From Chitinophagaceae bacterium (GTDB lineage: Bacteria > Bacteroidota > Bacteroidia > Chitinophagales > Chitinophagaceae): a stretch of DNA of 64,000 bases. The notes below the pieces were generated by a model. That model did not search any database. It was not told where the DNA came from and saw only the letters and a list, made by a program, of their open reading frames with translations. Positions 315 to 23,248 of the stretch are shown one piece after another. A program made the position numbers and the translations under genes. The stretch lies in assembly GCA_947455605.1 (NCBI GenBank), contig CANGOX010000006.1, positions 1-64,000 of the forward strand, in the 5' to 3' direction. Position 1 is the stretch's first letter; every line of letters starts with the position of its first letter.

Positions 315-2246
315 TTGCAATTATCCATCATCATAGTCAACTACAACGTCAGGTTCTTTCTGGAACAATGCCTGTATTCTGTGCAAAAGGCGATGGAAGG
401 ATTGGATGCGGAACTGATCGTGGTTGATAATCATTCGGTTGATGGGAGTCTTGAGTATTTGATGCCGCTTTTCCCACAGGTCAGGTTTATCAGTAATCAA
501 CAAAATCTTGGTTTTGCAAAAGCCAATAACCAGGCAATTCCTTTGTGTAAAGGAGAATATCTGCTTTTCCTGAATCCCGACACGTTGGTGCCGGAAGATA
601 GTTTACATAAATGCCTTGCTTTTATCCGTTCAGACGCCAAAACCGGGGCTTTAGGGGTAAGAATGCTGGATGGACGCGGTCGGTTTTTGCCGGAAAGTAA
701 GCGTGCTTTTCCCTCGCCGGGTGCTTCACTTTTTAAATTGACAGGGTTGGCGGGATGGTTTCCCAAATCAGCACTGTTTAACAGCTATGCTTTGGGTAAT
801 CTGAACGAACACCGGAACCATACCGTTGATGTATTGGCCGGCGCATTTATGATGGTGAGAAAAGAATTACTGCTGCAACTCAATGGTTTTGATGAAGACT
901 ATTTTTTATATGGAGAAGATATTGACCTGAGTTACCGCATACAGAAAGCCGGATTTACAAACAGGTATTTTTCCGAAACAAGTATCATTCACTTTAAAGG
1001 AGAGAGCTCGGCCGGCACATCTTTAAACCGGGTAGAATATTTTTATAGAGCCATGTTGGTGTTTGTTGATAAACACTATCGTTTAGGTAGTGCAAAAATA
1101 TTTTCCACTTTTATTCGTGTGGCGATCGCTGTTCGGGGGATCATTTCCGCATTAAATAAAATCATCAAACCGGTAATGTTACCCTTGATGGATGGTGCGA
1201 TGGTTTTCTTATCTCTGCAGGTAGTGAGAATGAGCTGGATCCAGCTGATCCGAAGCGGAAAAGATTTTGGTGTTGCTTTTATCCCCTATGCATTACCCTT
1301 GTTTGCTTTATTATTTGTTGTAGCCGCAGCGGGTGTTGGCTTGTATGATAAGATCTATAAAACCTCCAAAACCCTTGTGTCGATTGCGTTTGCGGCCGTA
1401 AGTATGCTGGCTGTTTATTCACTGCTGCCTGAACAACTGCGTTTTTCAAGAGGGGTTATGACCGGGGGTGGCTTATTGGGATGTTTACTGATCTTGTTGC
1501 TCCGTTGGTTTTTATTGAAGCGATCGCATCAGTTCTTTGGACAGGAAGCCGGTACTGCCGGACAAACAGTGATCGTGAGTAATGAAGAAGAATATAGAGT
1601 AATGATGCACTTATTAACAAAGGCAATGCTTGATAAAAAAATACTGGGTCGTGTTTCCTTACACAAAAACGAAACCGATACATTGTGTGATTTAGACGGT
1701 CTTTCTTTTTCGGCAAAACACCTGTCTGTTACCGAAGTGATCTTTTGTGTTGGTACCCTTTCATTAAAAGAAATCGTTGCAAGAACAGAACAACTGTCCG
1801 TAAACGGTATCCGTTTTTTATTTCATGTAAAGGGAAGTAAAAGTATGGTTGGGAGCGACACTTTGGCTGCCGGTGCAAAAACGATTACTGCTTATATTGA
1901 ATACCGGATCACACAGCCCTATCAACAAAGGATGAAGCGGCTTACGGATATGGTAATATCAATCTTTTTCTTATTAAGCTCTCCCATTCACCTTATTCTT
2001 CATAAAAAAGGAATCTGTTTGATACAAAACGCATGGTCTGTTCTTTTGAATAAACAAACCTGGATCGGCTATGCTTCAAATGCTACTTCTTTACCTTATA
2101 TAAAATCTGCTGTGGTTTCGCATATGGGCAGTAAAACCGGTTTTCCCGAAACTGTTTTGGAGAAAGCAGACAGACTCTATGCAAAAGAGTATGATTGGTG
2201 GCCCGATCTGCAGCTGGTTTTTCAATATTACCAACAACTCGGATAA
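315..2246 (+). CDS. GT2 glycosyltransferase fused to phosphoglycosyltransferase-like membrane region
   Basis: Residues 1 to about 230 form a family 2 glycosyltransferase domain: N-terminal SIIIVNYN, the nucleotide-site stretch LIVVDNHSVDGS, the metal-site region FLNPDTLVP and the acceptor-side motif FLYGEDIDLSYR. Rhamnosyltransferase-like enzymes of this type build cell-surface polysaccharides from nucleotide sugars. From about 265 to 400 there are several membrane segments, then a Rossmann-like region (about 420-530), then KRLTDMVISIFFLLSSP, which resembles the start of a bacterial sugar transferase (WbaP/PssY type) domain. The usual catalytic part of that domain, with its Asp-Glu pair, is not visible. 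The start is a TTG, chosen because translation from it gives the expected domain edge. The next gene follows 77 bases downstream. Donor and acceptor sugars cannot be told. Confidence 0.85.
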   Translation: MQLSIIIVNYNVRFFLEQCLYSVQKAMEGLDAELIVVDNHSVDGSLEYLMPLFPQVRFISNQQNLGFAKANNQAIPLCKGEYLLFLNPDTLVPEDSLHKCLAFIRSDAKTGALGVRMLDGRGRFLPESKRAFPSPGASLFKLTGLAGWFPKSALFNSYALGNLNEHRNHTVDVLAGAFMMVRKELLLQLNGFDEDYFLYGEDIDLSYRIQKAGFTNRYFSETSIIHFKGESSAGTSLNRVEYFYRAMLVFVDKHYRLGSAKIFSTFIRVAIAVRGIISALNKIIKPVMLPLMDGAMVFLSLQVVRMSWIQLIRSGKDFGVAFIPYALPLFALLFVVAAAGVGLYDKIYKTSKTLVSIAFAAVSMLAVYSLLPEQLRFSRGVMTGGGLLGCLLILLLRWFLLKRSHQFFGQEAGTAGQTVIVSNEEEYRVMMHLLTKAMLDKKILGRVSLHKNETDTLCDLDGLSFSAKHLSVTEVIFCVGTLSLKEIVARTEQLSVNGIRFLFHVKGSKSMVGSDTLAAGAKTITAYIEYRITQPYQQRMKRLTDMVISIFFLLSSPIHLILHKKGICLIQNAWSVLLNKQTWIGYASNATSLPYIKSAVVSHMGSKTGFPETVLEKADRLYAKEYDWWPDLQLVFQYYQQLG

Positions 2247-2323
2247 CCGGGCTACTGTTAAAACACGCCATTATTACGGCCATTTGTTTTAGCTTTGCCC
2301 TTTCTAAACCCCTGCATCTAACG

Positions 2324-3865
2324 ATGGCGATTCTTGATATCAAGCTTCCGAATACGATCTTAAAAGCCCTGCGTCTCCCGCAAAATAACCCGCGGAGCCA
2401 ACAGATCAAAGTGCTGAAGAAACTGCTGCGAAAAGCCAGGTTTACTGAATTTGGACAACAATATCACTTTGATGATATTCTATTGAGCAAACACCCCGGC
2501 AAACGTTTTCAGGAACTGGTTCCCACGTTTAATTACAATAAGATCTACAAAGATTGGTGGCATAAGACCATCGAAGGTAAACCCGATGTTTGCTGGCCCG
2601 GAAAGATCAAGTTCTATGCCTTGAGCAGCGGTACCAGCGAATCGGCCAGTAAATACATTCCTATTACCAACGACCTGCTCCGCGGAAATAAGATCGTAAT
2701 GGTAAAGCAACTGCTCAGTCTGCGTACCTATGAGGATATACCGTTCAGTTCCATCAGTAAAGGCTGGTTAACACTTGGCGGCAGTACCGATCTTCAAAAG
2801 GGCCCGGGTTATTATGCAGGCGATTTGAGTGGTATCACGGTTAAGAAGGCACCGTTCTGGTTTCAGCCTTTTTATAAACCCGGCAAAAAGATCGCCAAAC
2901 AAAAAGACTGGAATAAAAAACTTGAAGAGATCGTAGAAAAAGCACCTGAATGGGATATCGGCTTTTTGATCGGGGTGCCTGCATGGATTCAGATGTGCAT
3001 GGAAATGGTGATCGCAAAATACAAACTGAATAATATCCACGAAATGTGGCCCAATCTGGCCTTCTTTGTGCATGGCGGTGTGAGTTTTGATCCGTATAAA
3101 AAAGGGTTTGAAAAATTATTGGGTAAACCGATCACTTATATAGAAACCTATCTGGCAAGTGAGGGCTTTATTGCTTACCAGGAAAGACAATATGCCAAAG
3201 GAATGCGCCTGGTAACAGGTGAACATATTTTTATGGAGTTTGTGCCCTTTGATGAAAAGAATTTTGATGCCGATGGTGAAATGGTCAATGATCCTGAAGC
3301 CCTGATGATACATGAAGTAGAAGAAGGAAGAGATTACGCCTTACTGATCAGCACATCTGCCGGCACCTGGCGTTACCTGATAGGCGATACGGTTCGTTTT
3401 ACCGACAAAGAAAAATGTGAGATCGTGATCACGGGCCGTACCAAACATTTCTTAAGTCTGGTGGGTGAGCATTTAAGTGTAGATAATATGAACCACGCCA
3501 TCCAACTGGCCAGCGAAGAATTGAATGTATGTGTACCGGAATTTACAGTTGCCGGCGTACCCTATGGTAATTTCTTTGCACACCACTGGTATGTAGCCTG
3601 CGATGATAAGGTAGATAGTGTAAAGCTGGGTAAACTCATTGATGATAAGTTGAAAGACCTGAACGATGATTATGCAGTTGAAAGAAAAAGTGCTTTAAAA
3701 GAAGTGATCCTTACCGTTTTAAGTGAAAAGCAATTCATGGAGTTTATGCAGTCGAAAGGAAAAGTGGGCGGACAACATAAATTTCCCCGTGTATTGAAAG
3801 GTCAGATGTTGGAAGATTGGCAGGCGTTTCTTCAAAAAGAGCAGGCAAAATCGCCCACTGTATAA
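2324..3865 (+). CDS. GH3 family acyl-adenylating protein
   Basis: This 513-residue protein belongs to the GH3 family, relatives of firefly luciferase that activate a carboxylic acid with ATP and, in plants, join it to an amino acid. The ATP-binding motif SSGTSES is at 101-107; later come YLASEGF and the conserved WRYLIGDTVRFTD and ITGRTKHFLSLVGEHLS blocks, so all three family motifs are present. Length is normal for bacterial members. I use the ATG at 2324; an open frame extends upstream to 2195 inside the previous gene, but those 43 residues look like read-through and the family homology begins at MAILDIKLPN. Its stop is one base before the next start, suggesting co-transcription with the cyclophilin. 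The substrate of bacterial GH3 proteins is unknown. Confidence 0.88.
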   Translation: MAILDIKLPNTILKALRLPQNNPRSQQIKVLKKLLRKARFTEFGQQYHFDDILLSKHPGKRFQELVPTFNYNKIYKDWWHKTIEGKPDVCWPGKIKFYALSSGTSESASKYIPITNDLLRGNKIVMVKQLLSLRTYEDIPFSSISKGWLTLGGSTDLQKGPGYYAGDLSGITVKKAPFWFQPFYKPGKKIAKQKDWNKKLEEIVEKAPEWDIGFLIGVPAWIQMCMEMVIAKYKLNNIHEMWPNLAFFVHGGVSFDPYKKGFEKLLGKPITYIETYLASEGFIAYQERQYAKGMRLVTGEHIFMEFVPFDEKNFDADGEMVNDPEALMIHEVEEGRDYALLISTSAGTWRYLIGDTVRFTDKEKCEIVITGRTKHFLSLVGEHLSVDNMNHAIQLASEELNVCVPEFTVAGVPYGNFFAHHWYVACDDKVDSVKLGKLIDDKLKDLNDDYAVERKSALKEVILTVLSEKQFMEFMQSKGKVGGQHKFPRVLKGQMLEDWQAFLQKEQAKSPTV

Positions 3866-17836: not shown

Positions 17837-19075
17837 CTATTTTTTAGAAAACCGCCTGGCTACCCCTTCAATCGTTAATCCCTGAACCAAAATACTGAAT
17901 ACTACACAAGTATACGTTGCAATGATCAGTATTTGACGGGTTTCAATATCGGGTAAGGAAAGTACCATTGCAATAGATAGCCCGCCTCTAAGCCCGCCCC
18001 ATACGATCAATTTGACTTCTTTGTTATTCATATCGGTAAATCCGGGAAGTAATAAAGAAGGGAGGTATACAATAATGAACCGGGATAATAAAACGATCAG
18101 AACCGAGAAAAGTCCGATTATCAGGTAAGTGGTTTTAAACTCTATCATTACCAGTACAAAAGCAATACTGATAAACAGAAGCGCATTCAGTATCACGTCT
18201 ACCAGCTCCCAGAATTTGTGAACATAGTCTGAGGAATGATCACTCATGGCTTTATCCTTTTTGTAATTGCCTACAAACAAGCCCATAATTACCATTGCTA
18301 ATGCACCGGATAAATGTAAATAGGTACAAATGGCATATCCCGACATTACAAATGCAATTGTAAGCAGCACCTCTGTTTCATAATTATCTATTGACCTGAG
18401 TAATTTATGCAGGAGAAAGCCCAGTGCCAAACCGAAAATAATACCGCCAAGAGCCTCCCTTAGAAAAAGGATACCAAAATGCGAGAAATCAATTTTATCA
18501 TTTCCGAGCTGCAGGGTTTCAAGGAGTGCAATAAAGACCACTACGCCAACCCCATCATTAAAAAGTGATTCGCCTACTATGGTGGATTCTATTTTTTTGG
18601 GTACGTTGGCTTTTGTTAAGATGCCTAAAACCGCTATCGGATCTGTAGGTGAGATGAGTGCACCAAATATGAGGCAATAAATAAAATTAACAGGCACGCT
18701 CACCAACTGGCATAAGCCATAAAACAGTCCTGCAATAATAATGGTTGAAAGAATCACACCGGCTCCGGCAAACAGGCTGATCGGTTTTAATTGACTACGG
18801 ATCTCTTTCCAGCTTGTATGAAACGATCCTGCAAAAAGTAAAAAACCCAGCATGATGTTCAGAATGATAGAGCTGATGTCTATACCGGTTATTAAATTTT
18901 TAATTTGCAGATAGTGGTGTGTGTCCCAGATCTTACTGCTGATTATGACAAGCGAAAGAAGTGTTGTTAAAAAAAACAACCCGATCACAAATGGCATTTT
19001 CAGAATCCGGTGATTGATATAGGCAAATGCAGCAGATAATGATAATAACAAGATCAATAATAGATAGGTATTCAA
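17837..19075 (-). CDS. Sodium/proton antiporter (CPA1, NhaP-like)
   Basis: This 412-residue protein has about twelve membrane segments and CPA1 features: FGALISPTDPIAVLGIL (the transport site region) and GESLFNDGVGVVVFIALLE, with the paired acidic and asparagine residues expected for cation exchange, and later GGLRGGLSIAMVLSLP. It should exchange sodium or potassium for protons at the inner membrane, for pH and ion control. No cytoplasmic regulatory tail is present, so it is a compact bacterial form. The start is TTG at 19075, just before a hydrophobic first helix. It follows the DUF2231 gene after a terminator and so is probably a separate unit. Confidence 0.92.
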   Translation of the reverse strand: MNTYLLLILLLSLSAAFAYINHRILKMPFVIGLFFLTTLLSLVIISSKIWDTHHYLQIKNLITGIDISSIILNIMLGFLLFAGSFHTSWKEIRSQLKPISLFAGAGVILSTIIIAGLFYGLCQLVSVPVNFIYCLIFGALISPTDPIAVLGILTKANVPKKIESTIVGESLFNDGVGVVVFIALLETLQLGNDKIDFSHFGILFLREALGGIIFGLALGFLLHKLLRSIDNYETEVLLTIAFVMSGYAICTYLHLSGALAMVIMGLFVGNYKKDKAMSDHSSDYVHKFWELVDVILNALLFISIAFVLVMIEFKTTYLIIGLFSVLIVLLSRFIIVYLPSLLLPGFTDMNNKEVKLIVWGGLRGGLSIAMVLSLPDIETRQILIIATYTCVVFSILVQGLTIEGVARRFSKK

Positions 19076-19259: not shown

Positions 19260-19739
19260 TTAATCATCTTTATCCCTACCCGTGGTATTTTGAACAGCAC
19301 CGGTTCGGATCTCAGTGTGTCTTATCTGTCCGCCCAGATTACCGGTCTGTGCTACCAATGCAAAACTGATCAAAGAAACAACCATGGTTATTAGTGAAAA
19401 AGTATTTGCAAAAACCGATTTTTTATAGGTAAGGAATAGACTCACTAAAGAAAGAGCACCCAAAATGAGTAAACTGATCAATGCATACATCGCAAACTGT
19501 TCGTGTTGCTTCATGATCATTTCTGATACACCCGGTAAGTCTTCAACGGCTTCTTCAGCCCCTTCTCCGGTTAGATATGCAATACCCGCTCCGATAGCCG
19601 ATAGAACAAACAAAAGATAAGCGGCTATTTTAGTATGATCATTTTTAACCCATAATCCATAACCTAATACGAAAGCGCCTAATATTGATCCAAACACCGG
19701 CAGGTGGGTGATTAATAAATGCAAATGTACCTGGCTCAT
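19260..19739 (-). CDS. DUF2231-type four-helix membrane protein
   Basis: This 159-residue membrane protein has four hydrophobic segments. It resembles the protein at 22711-23178: both start with HLHxxxxHxP, both have IAY(L/V)TG after helix 2, HEQ(F/A)A before helix 3, and QTGNLGGQIRH or RTGYLGGQLVYKH after helix 4. These shared histidines could bind heme or a metal (inference); family function is not established. The gene follows the lipoprotein rubrerythrin by 11 bases and so is probably its operon partner. The N-terminal part matches what DUF2231 proteins usually look like, but the assignment is from pattern memory only. Confidence 0.75.
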   Translation of the reverse strand: MSQVHLHLLITHLPVFGSILGAFVLGYGLWVKNDHTKIAAYLLFVLSAIGAGIAYLTGEGAEEAVEDLPGVSEMIMKQHEQFAMYALISLLILGALSLVSLFLTYKKSVFANTFSLITMVVSLISFALVAQTGNLGGQIRHTEIRTGAVQNTTGRDKDD

Positions 19740-19750
19740 GTTTTTTTATT

Positions 19751-20545
19751 TTATAATGATAGAATAGTGATGAATTTTTCCCTCGGCGTCATAGAAATAC
19801 CACAACGGGCAGGTGCTTTTGTTTCATAGGTATTTCCGCAGGTAGGGCATACATAATAAACAGTAGGTAAGGTTTTTACAGCACCATTTTGTAAAGCTGC
19901 CATAGCAGTTTCGTACAATACTTTGTGTTTCTTTTCTGTTTTATAAGCATAGTTCAAGCTGATCAAAGCGATCTGATTTTCTGCTTCATTGGCGGTTTTT
20001 ATGAAATCGGGATACATGGTGTCAATTTCATAAGATTCACCTTTAATGGCATCTTCCAGGTTTTCTTTGGTTGATTTAACAGTGTAATCCGGCTTTACAG
20101 CAGGTACCGCTGCACCAGATTCCTGTAAAACGGCTTTGTGGTTATTGGCATGAATATTTTCGGAAGTAGAAGCTGCTTTAAAGAGTAGTGCAATCTGGTG
20201 ATAACCTTCCTGTTCTGCTTTTTTTGCATAATCGGCATATTTTGCACTGGCAGTGGTTTCGCCTTTAAAAGCGTTCTGCATATTTTCGATCGTTTTTATT
20301 TTAGGATCTGAAGATTTTGTCATGTTGCTTTGATTTTGATTTGATTTTTTTTCGTCTTTCTCGTCATTTTTTCCTTCGTTGCGTTCGTTTTCTCCGGTTT
20401 CACTCATTTCACCCGGTTTAGTGGAGTCTGCTGTTTTCAGTGTGGGTGATTTAAGACTTGCGTCAGATCCTGAATTTCCACATGCCGTTAGTAACATACC
20501 GGTAAACAGTAACAGCATAGAAGGGATCAGAAATAATTTTTTCAT
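19751..20545 (-). CDS. Lipoprotein rubrerythrin with altered rubredoxin site
   Basis: A lipoprotein signal peptide (LLLTAC) is followed by a charged, low-complexity linker (about 30-75), then a rubrerythrin diiron domain with the expected GE...ENIHANNH and GE...EKKHKVL ligand pairs (ExxH twice). The C-terminal part is rubredoxin-like: CPTCGNTYE, then APARCGISMTPREKF. The second knuckle should read CxxC; here it is CGIS, a Cys to Ser change that needs only one base (TGT to TCT). Rubrerythrins reduce hydrogen peroxide. A membrane-anchored form outside the cytoplasm is unusual. The gene pairs with the DUF2231 protein downstream and has a direct-repeat site upstream. Confidence 0.88.
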   Translation of the reverse strand: MKKLFLIPSMLLLFTGMLLTACGNSGSDASLKSPTLKTADSTKPGEMSETGENERNEGKNDEKDEKKSNQNQSNMTKSSDPKIKTIENMQNAFKGETTASAKYADYAKKAEQEGYHQIALLFKAASTSENIHANNHKAVLQESGAAVPAVKPDYTVKSTKENLEDAIKGESYEIDTMYPDFIKTANEAENQIALISLNYAYKTEKKHKVLYETAMAALQNGAVKTLPTVYYVCPTCGNTYETKAPARCGISMTPREKFITILSL

Positions 20546-20573: not shown

Positions 20574-20582
20574 CAAAGATTA
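20574..20582 (-). promoter_or_regulatory. Promoter-like element for rubrerythrin operon
   Basis: On the minus strand TAATCTTTG lies 29 bases before the ATG and resembles the TAnnTTTG consensus with one extra base. The G of TTTG is 41 bases from the start of the nearer CTTAAG of the repeat at 20615-20631. Confidence 0.5.
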
Positions 20583-20614
20583 CCCCTACACCCTAAGTGC
20601 AGGCTTTGTACTTT

Positions 20615-20631
20615 CTTAAGTTCGTCTTAAG
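20615..20631 (-). promoter_or_regulatory. CTTAAG direct repeat, candidate response-regulator site
   Basis: CTTAAG occurs twice with an 11-base period (CTTAAG-TTCGT-CTTAAG on the plus strand). It lies directly after the histidine kinase stop and upstream of the rubrerythrin gene. OmpR-family regulators typically bind two direct half-sites spaced 10-11 bases apart, upstream of the promoter. The same layout occurs at 23232-23248. Confidence 0.55.
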
Positions 20632-20632
20632 A

Positions 20633-22000
20633 TTATGCAGGAAACTGTAAGGAAAAAGTAGTTTTTCCGTGAACGCTTTGTACGGAAATAACAATACGTT
20701 GCAGGTCGGATAACTTTTTTACAATAGCTAATCCTAACCCACTACCCGGTATCTGTGTACTTCTGGATTCATCCGTTCGGTAAAACCGGTTAAACACCTG
20801 TGGGATCTGGTTTTCGGTAATGCCCGGACCTTCATTAATGATGGAGAAACAGTTGCTTGGTTTATCCCAGATACAAGTGATCCTGCAGCTGCCGGGACTG
20901 TATTTTATGGCATTGTCTATCAGGTTGTCAATGATGATTGGCAGAAAGAAAGGGTCGGCCATTACGATCGTATCTTTAGGGATAGTGCAATCAAAAGTCA
21001 GCTTCTTTTCAATAATTTGCTTCTCCCACTTTTCAGCAGAAACTGCTAAAATATCTGTAAGCAACACATTTTCTTTTTTTGCAGTGCCTGCCTCTAAACG
21101 GGCCAGTTGCAATAATTGATCTAAAAGAAGATGTAAACGGTCTGCCTGACCTATCACTTCTTTTATTTTTTCTTCATATTGTACAGGCTCTCTTTGTTTA
21201 CGCAATAACACTTCCAGATTGCCACGTATGGCAGATAAAGGTGTTCGTATTTCATGAGACGCATCTGCAGTAAATTGTTTTTGCTGTTGAACGCTGGTTT
21301 CTATGCGACCCAGTAATTCGTTGATCGTTTGGGTTAGCTGATAAAGTTCATCTTCATTCTCGGGTAAGGGCAAACGGTTATTGATATTTGAATCATTAAA
21401 ACCAGATGCGGCCTGTATTAAAGTATTTACCGGTGCAATGGCCCGTGATGCGGCAAGGTAAATCACCATATATAAGATTACCAGCAATACAGGGAAAGAA
21501 ATACAAAGTATTAACAACAGATTGTTTAATACGATATAGGATTCCTGTTGTGAAACACCAATCGTTAACTGTCCTATCACTTTTCCTCTGTCATTCCATA
21601 TAGGAAATTGACCCAGACGTAATCGTTGGTTTTCGATCATCTGGTTATAAAAATATCCGCTTTCATTGGATGGCTTAAATAAAAAATGGTTGGATTTCAG
21701 ATTGGCAGATTTAAAGATCATACTATCCTTATTATCTACTATCTGAATGAACGTTGGATTTACTTCTACCTTTTTATGTTCAGCTTCTTCCCATTCAGGT
21801 ATTTTATTGATGATTACACTATCTTCTTTCCAGGTAAGTGAATGATTGATCTCTTCTTTTTCCTGTACAATATCAACATCCAGGTGCTTATAGGATGTAT
21901 AAGACACAACCTCATAAATAACAACAAACACAATTGCAATGGTGATTGCCACTGCAGTTGTATTTATAAATGCAATTCTTTTTTTAAAACTAAATCTCAC
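20633..22000 (-). CDS. Sensor histidine kinase (HAMP, HisKA, HATPase)
   Basis: This 455-residue kinase has a first membrane helix (about 9-30), a periplasmic sensor region of about 140 residues, a second helix (about 170-190), a HAMP region (IAPVNTLIQAASGF), a HisKA block FTADASHEIRTPLSAIRGNLE carrying the phospho-accepting histidine, and ATPase motifs IIDNLIDNAIKYSP, INEGPGI and SGLGLAIVKKL. It senses an unknown signal outside the inner membrane and phosphorylates the regulator encoded just upstream. The start is GTG at 22000, five bases after the regulator stop. The periplasmic domain resembles none that I can name. Confidence 0.93.
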   Translation of the reverse strand: MRFSFKKRIAFINTTAVAITIAIVFVVIYEVVSYTSYKHLDVDIVQEKEEINHSLTWKEDSVIINKIPEWEEAEHKKVEVNPTFIQIVDNKDSMIFKSANLKSNHFLFKPSNESGYFYNQMIENQRLRLGQFPIWNDRGKVIGQLTIGVSQQESYIVLNNLLLILCISFPVLLVILYMVIYLAASRAIAPVNTLIQAASGFNDSNINNRLPLPENEDELYQLTQTINELLGRIETSVQQQKQFTADASHEIRTPLSAIRGNLEVLLRKQREPVQYEEKIKEVIGQADRLHLLLDQLLQLARLEAGTAKKENVLLTDILAVSAEKWEKQIIEKKLTFDCTIPKDTIVMADPFFLPIIIDNLIDNAIKYSPGSCRITCIWDKPSNCFSIINEGPGITENQIPQVFNRFYRTDESRSTQIPGSGLGLAIVKKLSDLQRIVISVQSVHGKTTFSLQFPA

Positions 22001-22005
22001 TATGT

Positions 22006-22677
22006 TTAGTCATTAATCCTGTAGCCAACTCCACGAATGGTTTGTATAAATGAGTCGTTACCGGGGTCATCTAATTTTTTCCTGATTGCGTTGATAAAAA
22101 CGTCAATCACCGATGTGTCTTTATCAAAATGAATATCCCATATCTTTTCAATTATGCGGGTTCTCCTGCAAACTTTTCCTTTGTTTCGCAACAGATATTC
22201 CAGTAAGGCAAATTCTTTTTGGGTAAGTTCTACTGTCTCGCCATTCTTAAAAACACTATGCACTTCTGTGTTCAGCAACACGCCGCCAGACTCAAAAACA
22301 GTTTGCTCTCCGGTTTTACTTCTCAGTAATACTTTAATACGTGCCAATAATTCTTCAAAAGCAAATGGCTTTTTCAGGTAATCATTTGCACCTGCCTCGA
22401 GGCCAAATACGGTATCGTCTACGGTATCTTTTGCAGTTAAAAAAATGATCGGAATTTCATTGTTGATTTTTCGGATATTTCTGCAGATCTCAATGCCGCT
22501 GATGCCGGGCAGCATCCAATCCAGTAATATCACATCATACTCAGTAAGATTATCTAATGCCAATTCAAGGCCAATCTTACCATTATAGGCTACATCTACA
22601 GCAAAGCCTTCCTCTTCCAGTCCCTGTTTAATAAAACCGGCAATTGCTGCTTCATCTTCTGCCAATAAGATCCTCAT
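22006..22677 (-). CDS. OmpR-family response regulator
   Basis: This 223-residue protein has a receiver domain (MRILLAEDEAAIAGF, phospho-acceptor in VILLDWMLPG, conserved lysine region FLTAKD and YLKKPF) followed by an OmpR/PhoB winged helix (VELTQKEFALLEYLLRNKGKV, IDVFINAIRKKLDD, IQTIRGVGYRIND). It binds DNA once phosphorylated by the kinase downstream. Candidate targets are the CTTAAG repeat sites at 20615 and 23232. It forms one operon with the DUF2231 gene upstream (33-base gap) and the kinase downstream. Confidence 0.95.
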   Translation of the reverse strand: MRILLAEDEAAIAGFIKQGLEEEGFAVDVAYNGKIGLELALDNLTEYDVILLDWMLPGISGIEICRNIRKINNEIPIIFLTAKDTVDDTVFGLEAGANDYLKKPFAFEELLARIKVLLRSKTGEQTVFESGGVLLNTEVHSVFKNGETVELTQKEFALLEYLLRNKGKVCRRTRIIEKIWDIHFDKDTSVIDVFINAIRKKLDDPGNDSFIQTIRGVGYRIND

Positions 22678-22710
22678 ACCTGTAAGTTAAACCAAAAAAA
22701 TGCGTTTGTT

Positions 22711-23178
22711 TTACTTTTCACTACTGCCCGAAAAATCGGGTAATGTTAATTCTACACCTGCCCCGTGTTTATATACCAATTGCCCGCCGAGGTATCCTGT
22801 TCTGGCAACCGATCCGATCACACCTGTAAATAATAATAGACAGAGAACATTTGTCCAGGTTCTTTTTACCTGAAAAAAGTAAATAGACACATATGTGATA
22901 GCGGTTGTTACGGTGAGCCATAATGTTAAAGTAGCTGCTTGCTCATGAAGCTGAATGGCTTTTGCCAGTTCTCCTTCCTCCATACCTTCACCAGCCGCAT
23001 TTCCTGTTACGTAGGCTATGATTGAGCCCAATGTTCCCAGTAATAATAAATAAAAGGCAGCCTGATGGAAAAAAAATCGGTTTCGAAATAAGGCAAGAAT
23101 TTCCGAGAGGAAACCGGCCATTAGTAAAGCAATGGGAAAATGAATCACCATTGCATGTAAATGCGAAGAAGAGAGCAT
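22711..23178 (-). CDS. DUF2231-type four-helix membrane protein
   Basis: This 155-residue protein has four hydrophobic segments and is a relative of the one at 19260-19739, sharing HLHxxxxHxP at the N-terminus, AYVTG, HEQAA and TGYLGGQLVYKHG. It is the first gene of the operon DUF2231-regulator-kinase, and the CTTAAG repeat at 23232 lies upstream. Being within a two-component operon, it may be the sensing partner or the output of the system (inference). The conserved histidines could hold heme or metal. No function is established for this family. Confidence 0.75.
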   Translation of the reverse strand: MLSSSHLHAMVIHFPIALLMAGFLSEILALFRNRFFFHQAAFYLLLLGTLGSIIAYVTGNAAGEGMEEGELAKAIQLHEQAATLTLWLTVTTAITYVSIYFFQVKRTWTNVLCLLLFTGVIGSVARTGYLGGQLVYKHGAGVELTLPDFSGSSEK

Positions 23179-23189
23179 GGATCTTTTTT

Positions 23190-23198
23190 GTAAAGTTG
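23190..23198 (-). promoter_or_regulatory. Promoter-like element for DUF2231-regulator operon
   Basis: On the minus strand CAACTTTAC lies 11 bases before the ATG of the DUF2231 gene. It is a weak TAnnTTTG-like match. Its position relative to the CTTAAG repeat is the same as at the rubrerythrin promoter (41 bases). Confidence 0.4.
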
Positions 23199-23231
23199 CT
23201 CCCGATAATATTTAGTAAAGGTTAGTAGATT

Positions 23232-23248
23232 CTTAAGATTGGCTTAAG
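23232..23248 (-). promoter_or_regulatory. CTTAAG direct repeat, candidate autoregulatory site
   Basis: CTTAAG-ATTGG-CTTAAG, 11-base period, upstream of the DUF2231-regulator-kinase operon. Both this site and the one at 20615 are preceded by TT on the plus strand and share a G four bases into the spacer. The site lies only 10 bases from the helicase stop, inside the short gap. Confidence 0.55.

Follow-up and report, generated by a model that had tools for sequence, protein, structure and literature searches.

Organization of the locus

In the current work, we describe a locus in a 64,000-nucleotide (nt) stretch of the genome of a Chitinophagaceae bacterium (assembly GCA_947455605.1, contig CANGOX010000006.1, positions 1 to 64,000 of the forward strand; hereafter the window), at which an OmpR-type response regulator and a sensor histidine kinase are encoded together with a rubrerythrin and two paralogous membrane proteins, DUF2231A and DUF2231B. 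The genes are all on the minus strand and make up two predicted operons, DUF2231A-regulator-kinase and rubrerythrin-DUF2231B, each of which is preceded by an exact copy of the paired motif CTTAAG-N5-CTTAAG, termed operator A and operator B, respectively (Table 1). Operator A is flanked by DUF2231A on one side and, on the other, by the end of a UvrD-type helicase gene. Both 17-mers, and the 11-base period of the two TTAAG-type repeats within each, are exactly as reported in the original prediction, which had been made from the letters of the window.

Table 1. Features of the locus in window coordinates (pLDDT, predicted local distance difference test).
Feature	Position	Strand	Description
Operator A	23232..23248	minus	CTTAAG-CCAAT-CTTAAG; exact; 5' of the DUF2231A-regulator-kinase operon
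Degenerate third half-site	23221..23226	minus	ACTAAC, in 11-base phase; weak in the window; from the alignment of A promoters
-7-like promoter element of A	23190..23198	minus	CAACTTTAC; predicted; TTTA in place of the TTTG of most relatives
DUF2231A	22711..23178	minus	Predicted four-helix membrane protein; PF09990, 68.8 bits (gathering score 26.4); model pLDDT 84
OmpR-type response regulator	22006..22677	minus	PF00072, 102.9 bits; PF00486, 92.8 bits
Sensor histidine kinase	20633..22000	minus	GTG start; HisKA and HATPase_c; extracytoplasmic EWEEAEH; sensor model pLDDT 81
Operator B	20615..20631	minus	CTTAAG-ACGAA-CTTAAG; exact; directly past the kinase stop, 5' of the rubrerythrin operon
-7-like promoter element of B	20574..20582	minus	TAATCTTTG; predicted; offset as in relatives
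Lipoprotein rubrerythrin	19751..20545	minus	PF02915, 73 bits (vs. 22.8); lipobox placed by eye; three-Cys rubredoxin-like tail
DUF2231B	19260..19739	minus	Paralogue of DUF2231A (32% identity); no Pfam match of its own
Na+/H+ exchanger	17837..19075	minus	PF00999, 197.8 bits; 184 nt past DUF2231B; membership of the unit unsure

The regulator comprises a receiver domain and a winged-helix effector domain, the architecture of the OmpR/PhoB family, and within its recognition helix (placed by eye) the stretch SVIDVFIN is identical in all 12 regulators aligned. The Na+/H+ exchanger gene is absent from the conserved neighbours at the loci of relatives.

Occurrence of the operator in the genome and the family

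Operators A and B are the only exact matches to CTTAAG-N5-CTTAAG in the 4,108,705 bases of the source genome. The reversed pattern, used as a control, has no exact match, and about 0.14-0.25 exact pairs would be expected in 4.1 Mb (from the hexamer density or a Markov model of the window). A random scatter of the repeat, the outcome against which the original prediction had asked for a genome scan, is thus not seen. Sites with one mismatch number five beyond A and B vs. four for the control; four of these five are within open reading frames (ORFs), and one (L076, TTTAAG-N5-CTTAAG) is intergenic, about 130 nt 5' of an ORF. Two-mismatch sites in the window number three, against a shuffled mean of 2.76. 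The unusual feature is the exact, paired placement, and the number of looser sites is at chance level. Because the other near-matches are at control level, the regulon in the source genome looks limited to two operons; a wider regulon was considered and rejected on these counts.

Across the family, an exact match was found in 22 of 294 genomes, the reversed control being commoner (58 genomes by hand count of the table); the three family genomes that carry an orthologue of the kinase are all among the 22. Exact boxes in the other 19, whose loci were read by eye, mostly have no evident link to a pair of regulator and kinase genes, and some are repeat arrays. For example, a tandem 11-base unit, CTTAAGACATG, at L006:1501-1550 (genome G006) accounts for 16 exact matches in one genome; it is satellite-like and apparently unrelated to the regulon.

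Four further exact-box loci (L004, L011, L012, and L018) are possibly of interest. At L004:1490-1517, three CTTAAG-type copies in 11-base phase are located upstream of a Na+/H+ antiporter gene (1614-3017; TIGR00831, 323.7 bits, above the cut-off), far from any orthologue of the window kinase; the window likewise has an exchanger gene beside its unit. Of the remaining boxes, that of L011 (L011:1501-1540) precedes a TolC-family gene, that of L012 (L012:1501-1517) is flanked by a kinase gene and one that is TolC-like by eye, and that of L018 (L018:1501-1517) comes just past a kinase gene; perhaps these three loci also belong to the regulator clade.

Conservation in close relatives

A contig search with the kinase yielded 15 loci, comprising 11 close orthologues (65-68% identity, L057-L067) and four distant ones (23-30%, L068-L071) that were dropped. 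Together with a relative from the same family (L073, kinase 47%), the close orthologues give 12 distinct loci, which are partly non-independent: L059, L065, and L067 are near-identical, L072 is the contig of L057, and L098 has the coordinates of L059. Operator A is exact in 10 of the 11 distinct loci that hold the region, with one mismatch in L066, and operator B has no or one mismatch in 12/12 (exact in 4), so that the repeats are conserved in relatives that keep the operon, as the original prediction had anticipated. The pattern CTTWAG-N5-CTTAAG occurs in all 13 genomes with a kinase orthologue, at 27 places, of which 24 are at the locus and three are inside ORFs. As in the source genome, the excess over chance is in the placement of the sites and not in their raw number. 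In the promoter alignment of these relatives, the half-sites are nearly invariant and the bases around them have diverged.

These data also bear on the possibility that the exact repeats are a coincidence or inherited DNA without function. The chance-level number of one- and two-mismatch sites in the genome and window would be compatible with it, as would the reversed control, whose frequency in the 13 genomes is similar. We nonetheless consider it extremely improbable in view of the retention of the half-sites amid diverged flanks and the presence of the sites, at a fixed offset from the promoter, in the locus of every close orthologue.

The regulator and DUF2231A are absent from L061. This locus (L061:6001-8749) appears as a reduced copy that retains the kinase and operator B, with a VIT1-type gene after them and no regulator, DUF2231A, or rubrerythrin ORF found.

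Promoter spacing and orientation of the repeats

The consensus of the -7 promoter element in Bacteroidota is TAnnTTTG, in which TTTG is the core. Each operator in the window stands at the same distance, 41 bases, from a promoter-like element (20615 minus 20574; 23232 minus 23191), as had been noted from the sequence alone. The offset of these putative elements is that seen in relatives; the element of operator B reads TTTG, like most relatives, and that of operator A departs from the core. In loci of the rubrerythrin or lipoprotein type, TTTG starts 53-54 nt from the start of the box in 10/17 A promoters and 15/19 B promoters (25/36 in all), the offset being 54 in the 15 B promoters. The A promoter of L066 would fit this offset in its other register.

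The operators had been described as direct repeats of the kind bound by OmpR-type regulators. CTTAAG is palindromic, so direct and inverted repeats are indistinguishable in the window itself. In relatives, a direction is given by a bias in the spacer (often C-N-A-A-T) and by a third, weaker copy (TTAAG-like) that follows operator A in 11-base phase, at one side, in several of them.

Distant relatives and metal-pump loci

An order-level search found kinase matches (E at most 1e-70) in 19 of 396 genomes, and a phylum-level search (E at most 1e-60) found them in 115 of 395; from the latter search, the best-scoring loci were read (28 new, L124-L151). Boxes were scored as matches of 12; letter-shuffled promoter regions reach at least 10 in 0.84% of 2750 and 1.1% of 1120 trials. 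In five distant Bacteroidota loci (L124-L128), the order DUF2231A-regulator-kinase-rubrerythrin is kept, with best boxes of 11, 10, 10, 11, and 10 of 12 5' of DUF2231A and of 11, 11, 10, 10, and 10 past the kinase.

A second group of loci carries metal pumps instead. These belong to the CusA/CzcA family by best NCBIfam score in L103 and L113, where the fragments are too short for the full-length cut-off, and are CusA/CzcA-type by BLAST to the L103 fragment in the others. In the first set of such loci, a box of 10-12/12 precedes the regulator in 10/10 (including L112, in which no pump was seen) and a box of 11-12/12 precedes the pump in 9/9 scored; in the phylum-level set, a box of 10-12/12 follows the kinase in 10/10. 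The TTTG offset described above recurs in 7/10 A and 4/9 B promoters of pump-type loci. A VIT1-like gene is found at L106:740-1447, between the kinase and the operator of the CusA/CzcA-type pump gene. In the form (C/T)TTAAG-N5-(C/T)TTAAG, the operator thus seems to be a feature of a broader regulator clade. Nine loci from small genomes, lacking both the payload and the sensor motif discussed below, have sites like TTTAAG-N5-TTTAAG (9-10/12) somewhere in the 1.5 kb upstream, and in 8/9 the best score over the 160 nt upstream of the regulator (start as placed in the analysis) is no higher than 7-8/12. Their use as box-free controls was rejected on account of these TTTAAG-type sites, which make them neither clean negatives nor clear positives.

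In a regulator tree, the pump-type regulators cluster together with support (95/100); this group has 11 rows, in two of which no payload was seen. The rubrerythrin-type regulators have no resolved grouping and the paralogues from the source genome are on long branches, one of them (L116) in the wrong reading frame, and for these reasons the tree does not give the direction of the payload change.

Another regulator of the cell might bind the repeats, the neighbouring system then being no more than a target. Adjacency of gene and site is no proof by itself, the pairing of regulator and site is putative, and a palindromic half-site could serve other proteins. This explanation is very unlikely, given that 24 of the 27 sites in the 13 genomes are at the locus and that related operators track the regulator/kinase lineage to other payloads; in addition, none of the eight regulator paralogues of the source genome (L116-L123) has a box above 10/12 in the fetched flanks, and one has 10/12. 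The proposal that the adjacent regulator and kinase control both operons as one self-regulating unit thus gains support from the conservation of the locus and from the same operator at the pump loci of related kinases, and an autoregulated unit is, in our judgement, very likely.

Sensor domain and candidate signals

The extracytoplasmic domain of the kinase is predicted to adopt a PAS/PDC-like fold, and its best Foldseek match (E 9.1e-7) is to an integrative model of WalK. With VIA-align, it resembles PhoQ (Z 8.9; root-mean-square deviation (rmsd) 3.7; 113 aligned), which is near the level of common arrangements. A stretch E-W-x-E-x-E-H is near-invariant in kinases of both payload groups, rubrerythrin and pump, and includes an ExxE-type motif with a putative role in metal binding. 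With up to one mismatch, the stretch is present in 42 of 56 loci, and a box of at least 10/12 lies within about 240 nt past the kinase in 32/42 of these vs. 5/14 of the others (Fisher p 0.009, uncorrected for ancestry). In this count, L108 starts inside the kinase, so that the motif is not visible, and the box of L106 is further on, past the VIT1-like gene.

A metal ion is probably the signal. Kinases known to sense iron have an Exx(x)E motif, which in BqsS is on a helix with Glu48 as the key Fe(II) ligand (PMC12666569). Because of this motif, iron is our leading guess, and Fe(II) in particular is proposed tentatively, at somewhat short of even chances.

The same regulon could instead answer another metal (Zn, Co, Cu/Ag, or Mn), as CzcRS and CusRS do. 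The best-scoring NCBIfam models are those of a heavy-metal regulator (cztR_silR_copR, TIGR01387; 235 bits, below the cut-off of 279.2) and a heavy-metal kinase (CztS/SilS/CopS, TIGR01386; 196.5 bits, below 292.55), related loci drive CusA/CzcA-family pumps, and the sensor model resembles silver-bound CusS (Z 8.6, rmsd 3.2, 119 aligned), again near the level of common arrangements. The payload in the window, however, is without a pump, iron or manganese is suggested by the rubrerythrin and VIT1 neighbours, and the sensor motif contains Glu and His but no Cys or Met; we therefore regard a metal other than iron as possible but on the unlikely side.

Rubrerythrins are typically peroxidases, and HprR is a peroxide-linked regulator, against which the window regulator scores 208 bits (below the cut-off of 353). 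Both points would suit a regulon that responds to peroxide, redox state, or envelope damage instead of a metal ion. Since the acidic/His sensor motif is common to the kinases of metal-pump loci, such a signal seems unlikely.

The putative effector genes

The rubrerythrin carries GET/ExxH-type diiron ligand stretches (by eye) in its PF02915 domain. Signals placed by eye are of the lipoprotein type in the window and ordinary signal peptides in L125-L128, so the protein should act outside the cytoplasm. Canonical rubrerythrins have a four-Cys rubredoxin centre; here the fourth Cys is lacking, and a three-Cys tail, CxxCGNTY...RCGIS, is found in 8 of the 9 rubrerythrin rows of the alignment (L066 being off frame) and in 8/8 proteins of a second set, with CRVS in L099. 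The NCBIfam rubrerythrin model NF045767 gives 97.7 bits, below its cut-off of 200.

The two DUF2231 proteins had been called histidine-rich, a description that does not hold, as there are only 6 His in 155 and 6 in 159 residues. A small set of residues, H6, H8, H13, H78, and E67, is nevertheless invariant in 20/20 aligned paralogues. Foldseek gave no match to the DUF2231 fold with E of at most 0.001, the best being CcmF at 0.15, and a functional assignment from VIA-align hits (designed bundles, CcmF, and cytochrome b561; Z about 12-14) was rejected, as such scores are at the general level of helical bundles. It is conceivable, albeit doubtful, that these proteins are membrane electron conduits, in which four-helix bundles with histidine-bound heme or metal would pass electrons from quinol to the periplasmic three-Cys rubrerythrin; the chain would serve Fe(II)/peroxide detoxification under an ancient, payload-swapping Bacteroidota regulator clade that drives either a metal pump or rubrerythrin from one fixed operator frame.

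In 7 of 13 loci, the unit has as its neighbour a gene from one family of VIT1-type iron/manganese transporters. The copy in L059, the one tested, combines Pfam VIT1 with an N-terminal rubrerythrin-like stretch, and a separate VIT1 gene is present in L057/L072. Small charged lipoprotein genes are also found right after operator B, replacing rubrerythrin at L073:742-1026 and L102:2404-2676 and preceding it at L064:4317-4586; those of L064 and L073 have no Pfam match.

Relation to known regulatory systems

The operator itself has precedents in Proteobacteria, in the sites of BqsR and PmrA. BqsR of Pseudomonas aeruginosa, an activator, has the site TTAAG-N6-TTAAG, with extra phased operator copies, one of which overlaps a -35 element, and hundreds of candidate sites (PMC4682146). 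In these published descriptions, which are the basis of the comparison in place of BqsR/BqsS sequences, BqsRS/CarRS resembles the present system in an equal operator and in the ExxE motif of an Fe(II)-sensing kinase, and differs from it in its target genes and in having hundreds of candidate sites vs. two in the source genome. The PmrA box, CTTAAG-N5-NTTAAT, is bound head-to-tail (PMC3973317) and is close to the window operator, with two TTAAG-type repeats of 11-base period; the PmrAB/BasSR kinase is listed among the iron sensors with an ExxE motif (PMC12666569). MbfA, a fusion of a ferritin-like domain and a VIT1-type iron exporter, is under Irr control in alphaproteobacteria (PMC7762939) and is mirrored by the VIT1 neighbour in L059, but has no counterpart at the window locus.

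Against these likenesses stand clear differences in sequence and gene content. The window regulator scores 153.7 bits with PmrA (cut-off 330) and its kinase 140.4 bits with PmrB (cut-off 314), both far below, and the target genes of PmrAB differ from those of the window unit. CzcRS, CusRS, and CopRS provide the best-scoring models and share their pump family with the related loci, but the scores are below the curated cut-offs, the payload in the window is rubrerythrin plus DUF2231, and the operator known for CusR differs from that described here. The rubrerythrin has the canonical domain and diiron ligand stretches and departs from the canonical protein in its lipoprotein signal and three-Cys tail.

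The original prediction knew of no described system of this make-up. The operator is known from BqsR and PmrA; the combination of this regulator/kinase unit with rubrerythrin and DUF2231 seems undescribed in the literature searched, a body that leaves out most subscription journals. Within it, TTAAG, response regulator, and czcR were not found together, the name DUF2231 appeared in just one of 5.39 million papers, a database article, the phrase 'periplasmic rubrerythrin' was absent, and no description of this Bacteroidota regulator lineage was found.

Proposed regulon and its implications

On balance, the locus is probably a self-contained, autoregulated two-component regulon that answers an extracytoplasmic metal with a rubrerythrin/DUF2231 effector. 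In the proposed mechanism, the kinase would use the acidic/His helix (EWxExEH) of its PAS/PDC-like domain to detect an extracytoplasmic metal cation, perhaps Fe(II), and would phosphorylate the adjacent OmpR-type regulator. The regulator would then bind (C/T)TTAAG-N5-(C/T)TTAAG head-to-tail just upstream of a Bacteroidota -33/-7 promoter. Activation of the DUF2231A-regulator-kinase transcript would provide positive feedback, and activation of the rubrerythrin-DUF2231B transcript would supply the effector, in which an extracytoplasmic rubrerythrin, accompanied by two four-helix membrane proteins, may have peroxidase and/or ferroxidase activity.

Several findings weigh against such a regulon. 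The raw motif count in the 13 genomes (22 forward and 22 reverse) does not stand out from that of the reversed control (18 and 18); 21 of the control's 36 hits are in genome G302 alone. The loci L099-L102, which are from one family and keep the rubrerythrin or lipoprotein, score 9/9, 10/9, 10/9, and 7/10 (A/B, of 12), and no box of at least 10/12 is found within 160 nt before the regulator in 8 of the 10 phylum-set pump loci. L073 and L102 have a small lipoprotein where rubrerythrin is expected, and the association between sensor motif and box is loose, with kinship ignored. The regulator and kinase are below the cut-offs of every metal-system model displayed. Finally, the unit in the window has no VIT1 gene, and the sole VIT1-like gene found in the source genome is without a box of at least 9/12 in the fetched flanks.

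The analysis offers a testable operator and regulon for a widespread Bacteroidota regulator lineage, as well as a predicted setting for DUF2231 and for the secreted type of rubrerythrin with a three-Cys tail, namely extracytoplasmic stress from metal and peroxide. If the DUF2231 proteins did prove to be electron conduits, the unit would form an extracytoplasmic chain dedicated to Fe(II)/peroxide detoxification. The occurrence of the same operator in iron-sensing systems of Proteobacteria raises the question of whether operator and signal share a common inheritance or arose by convergence.

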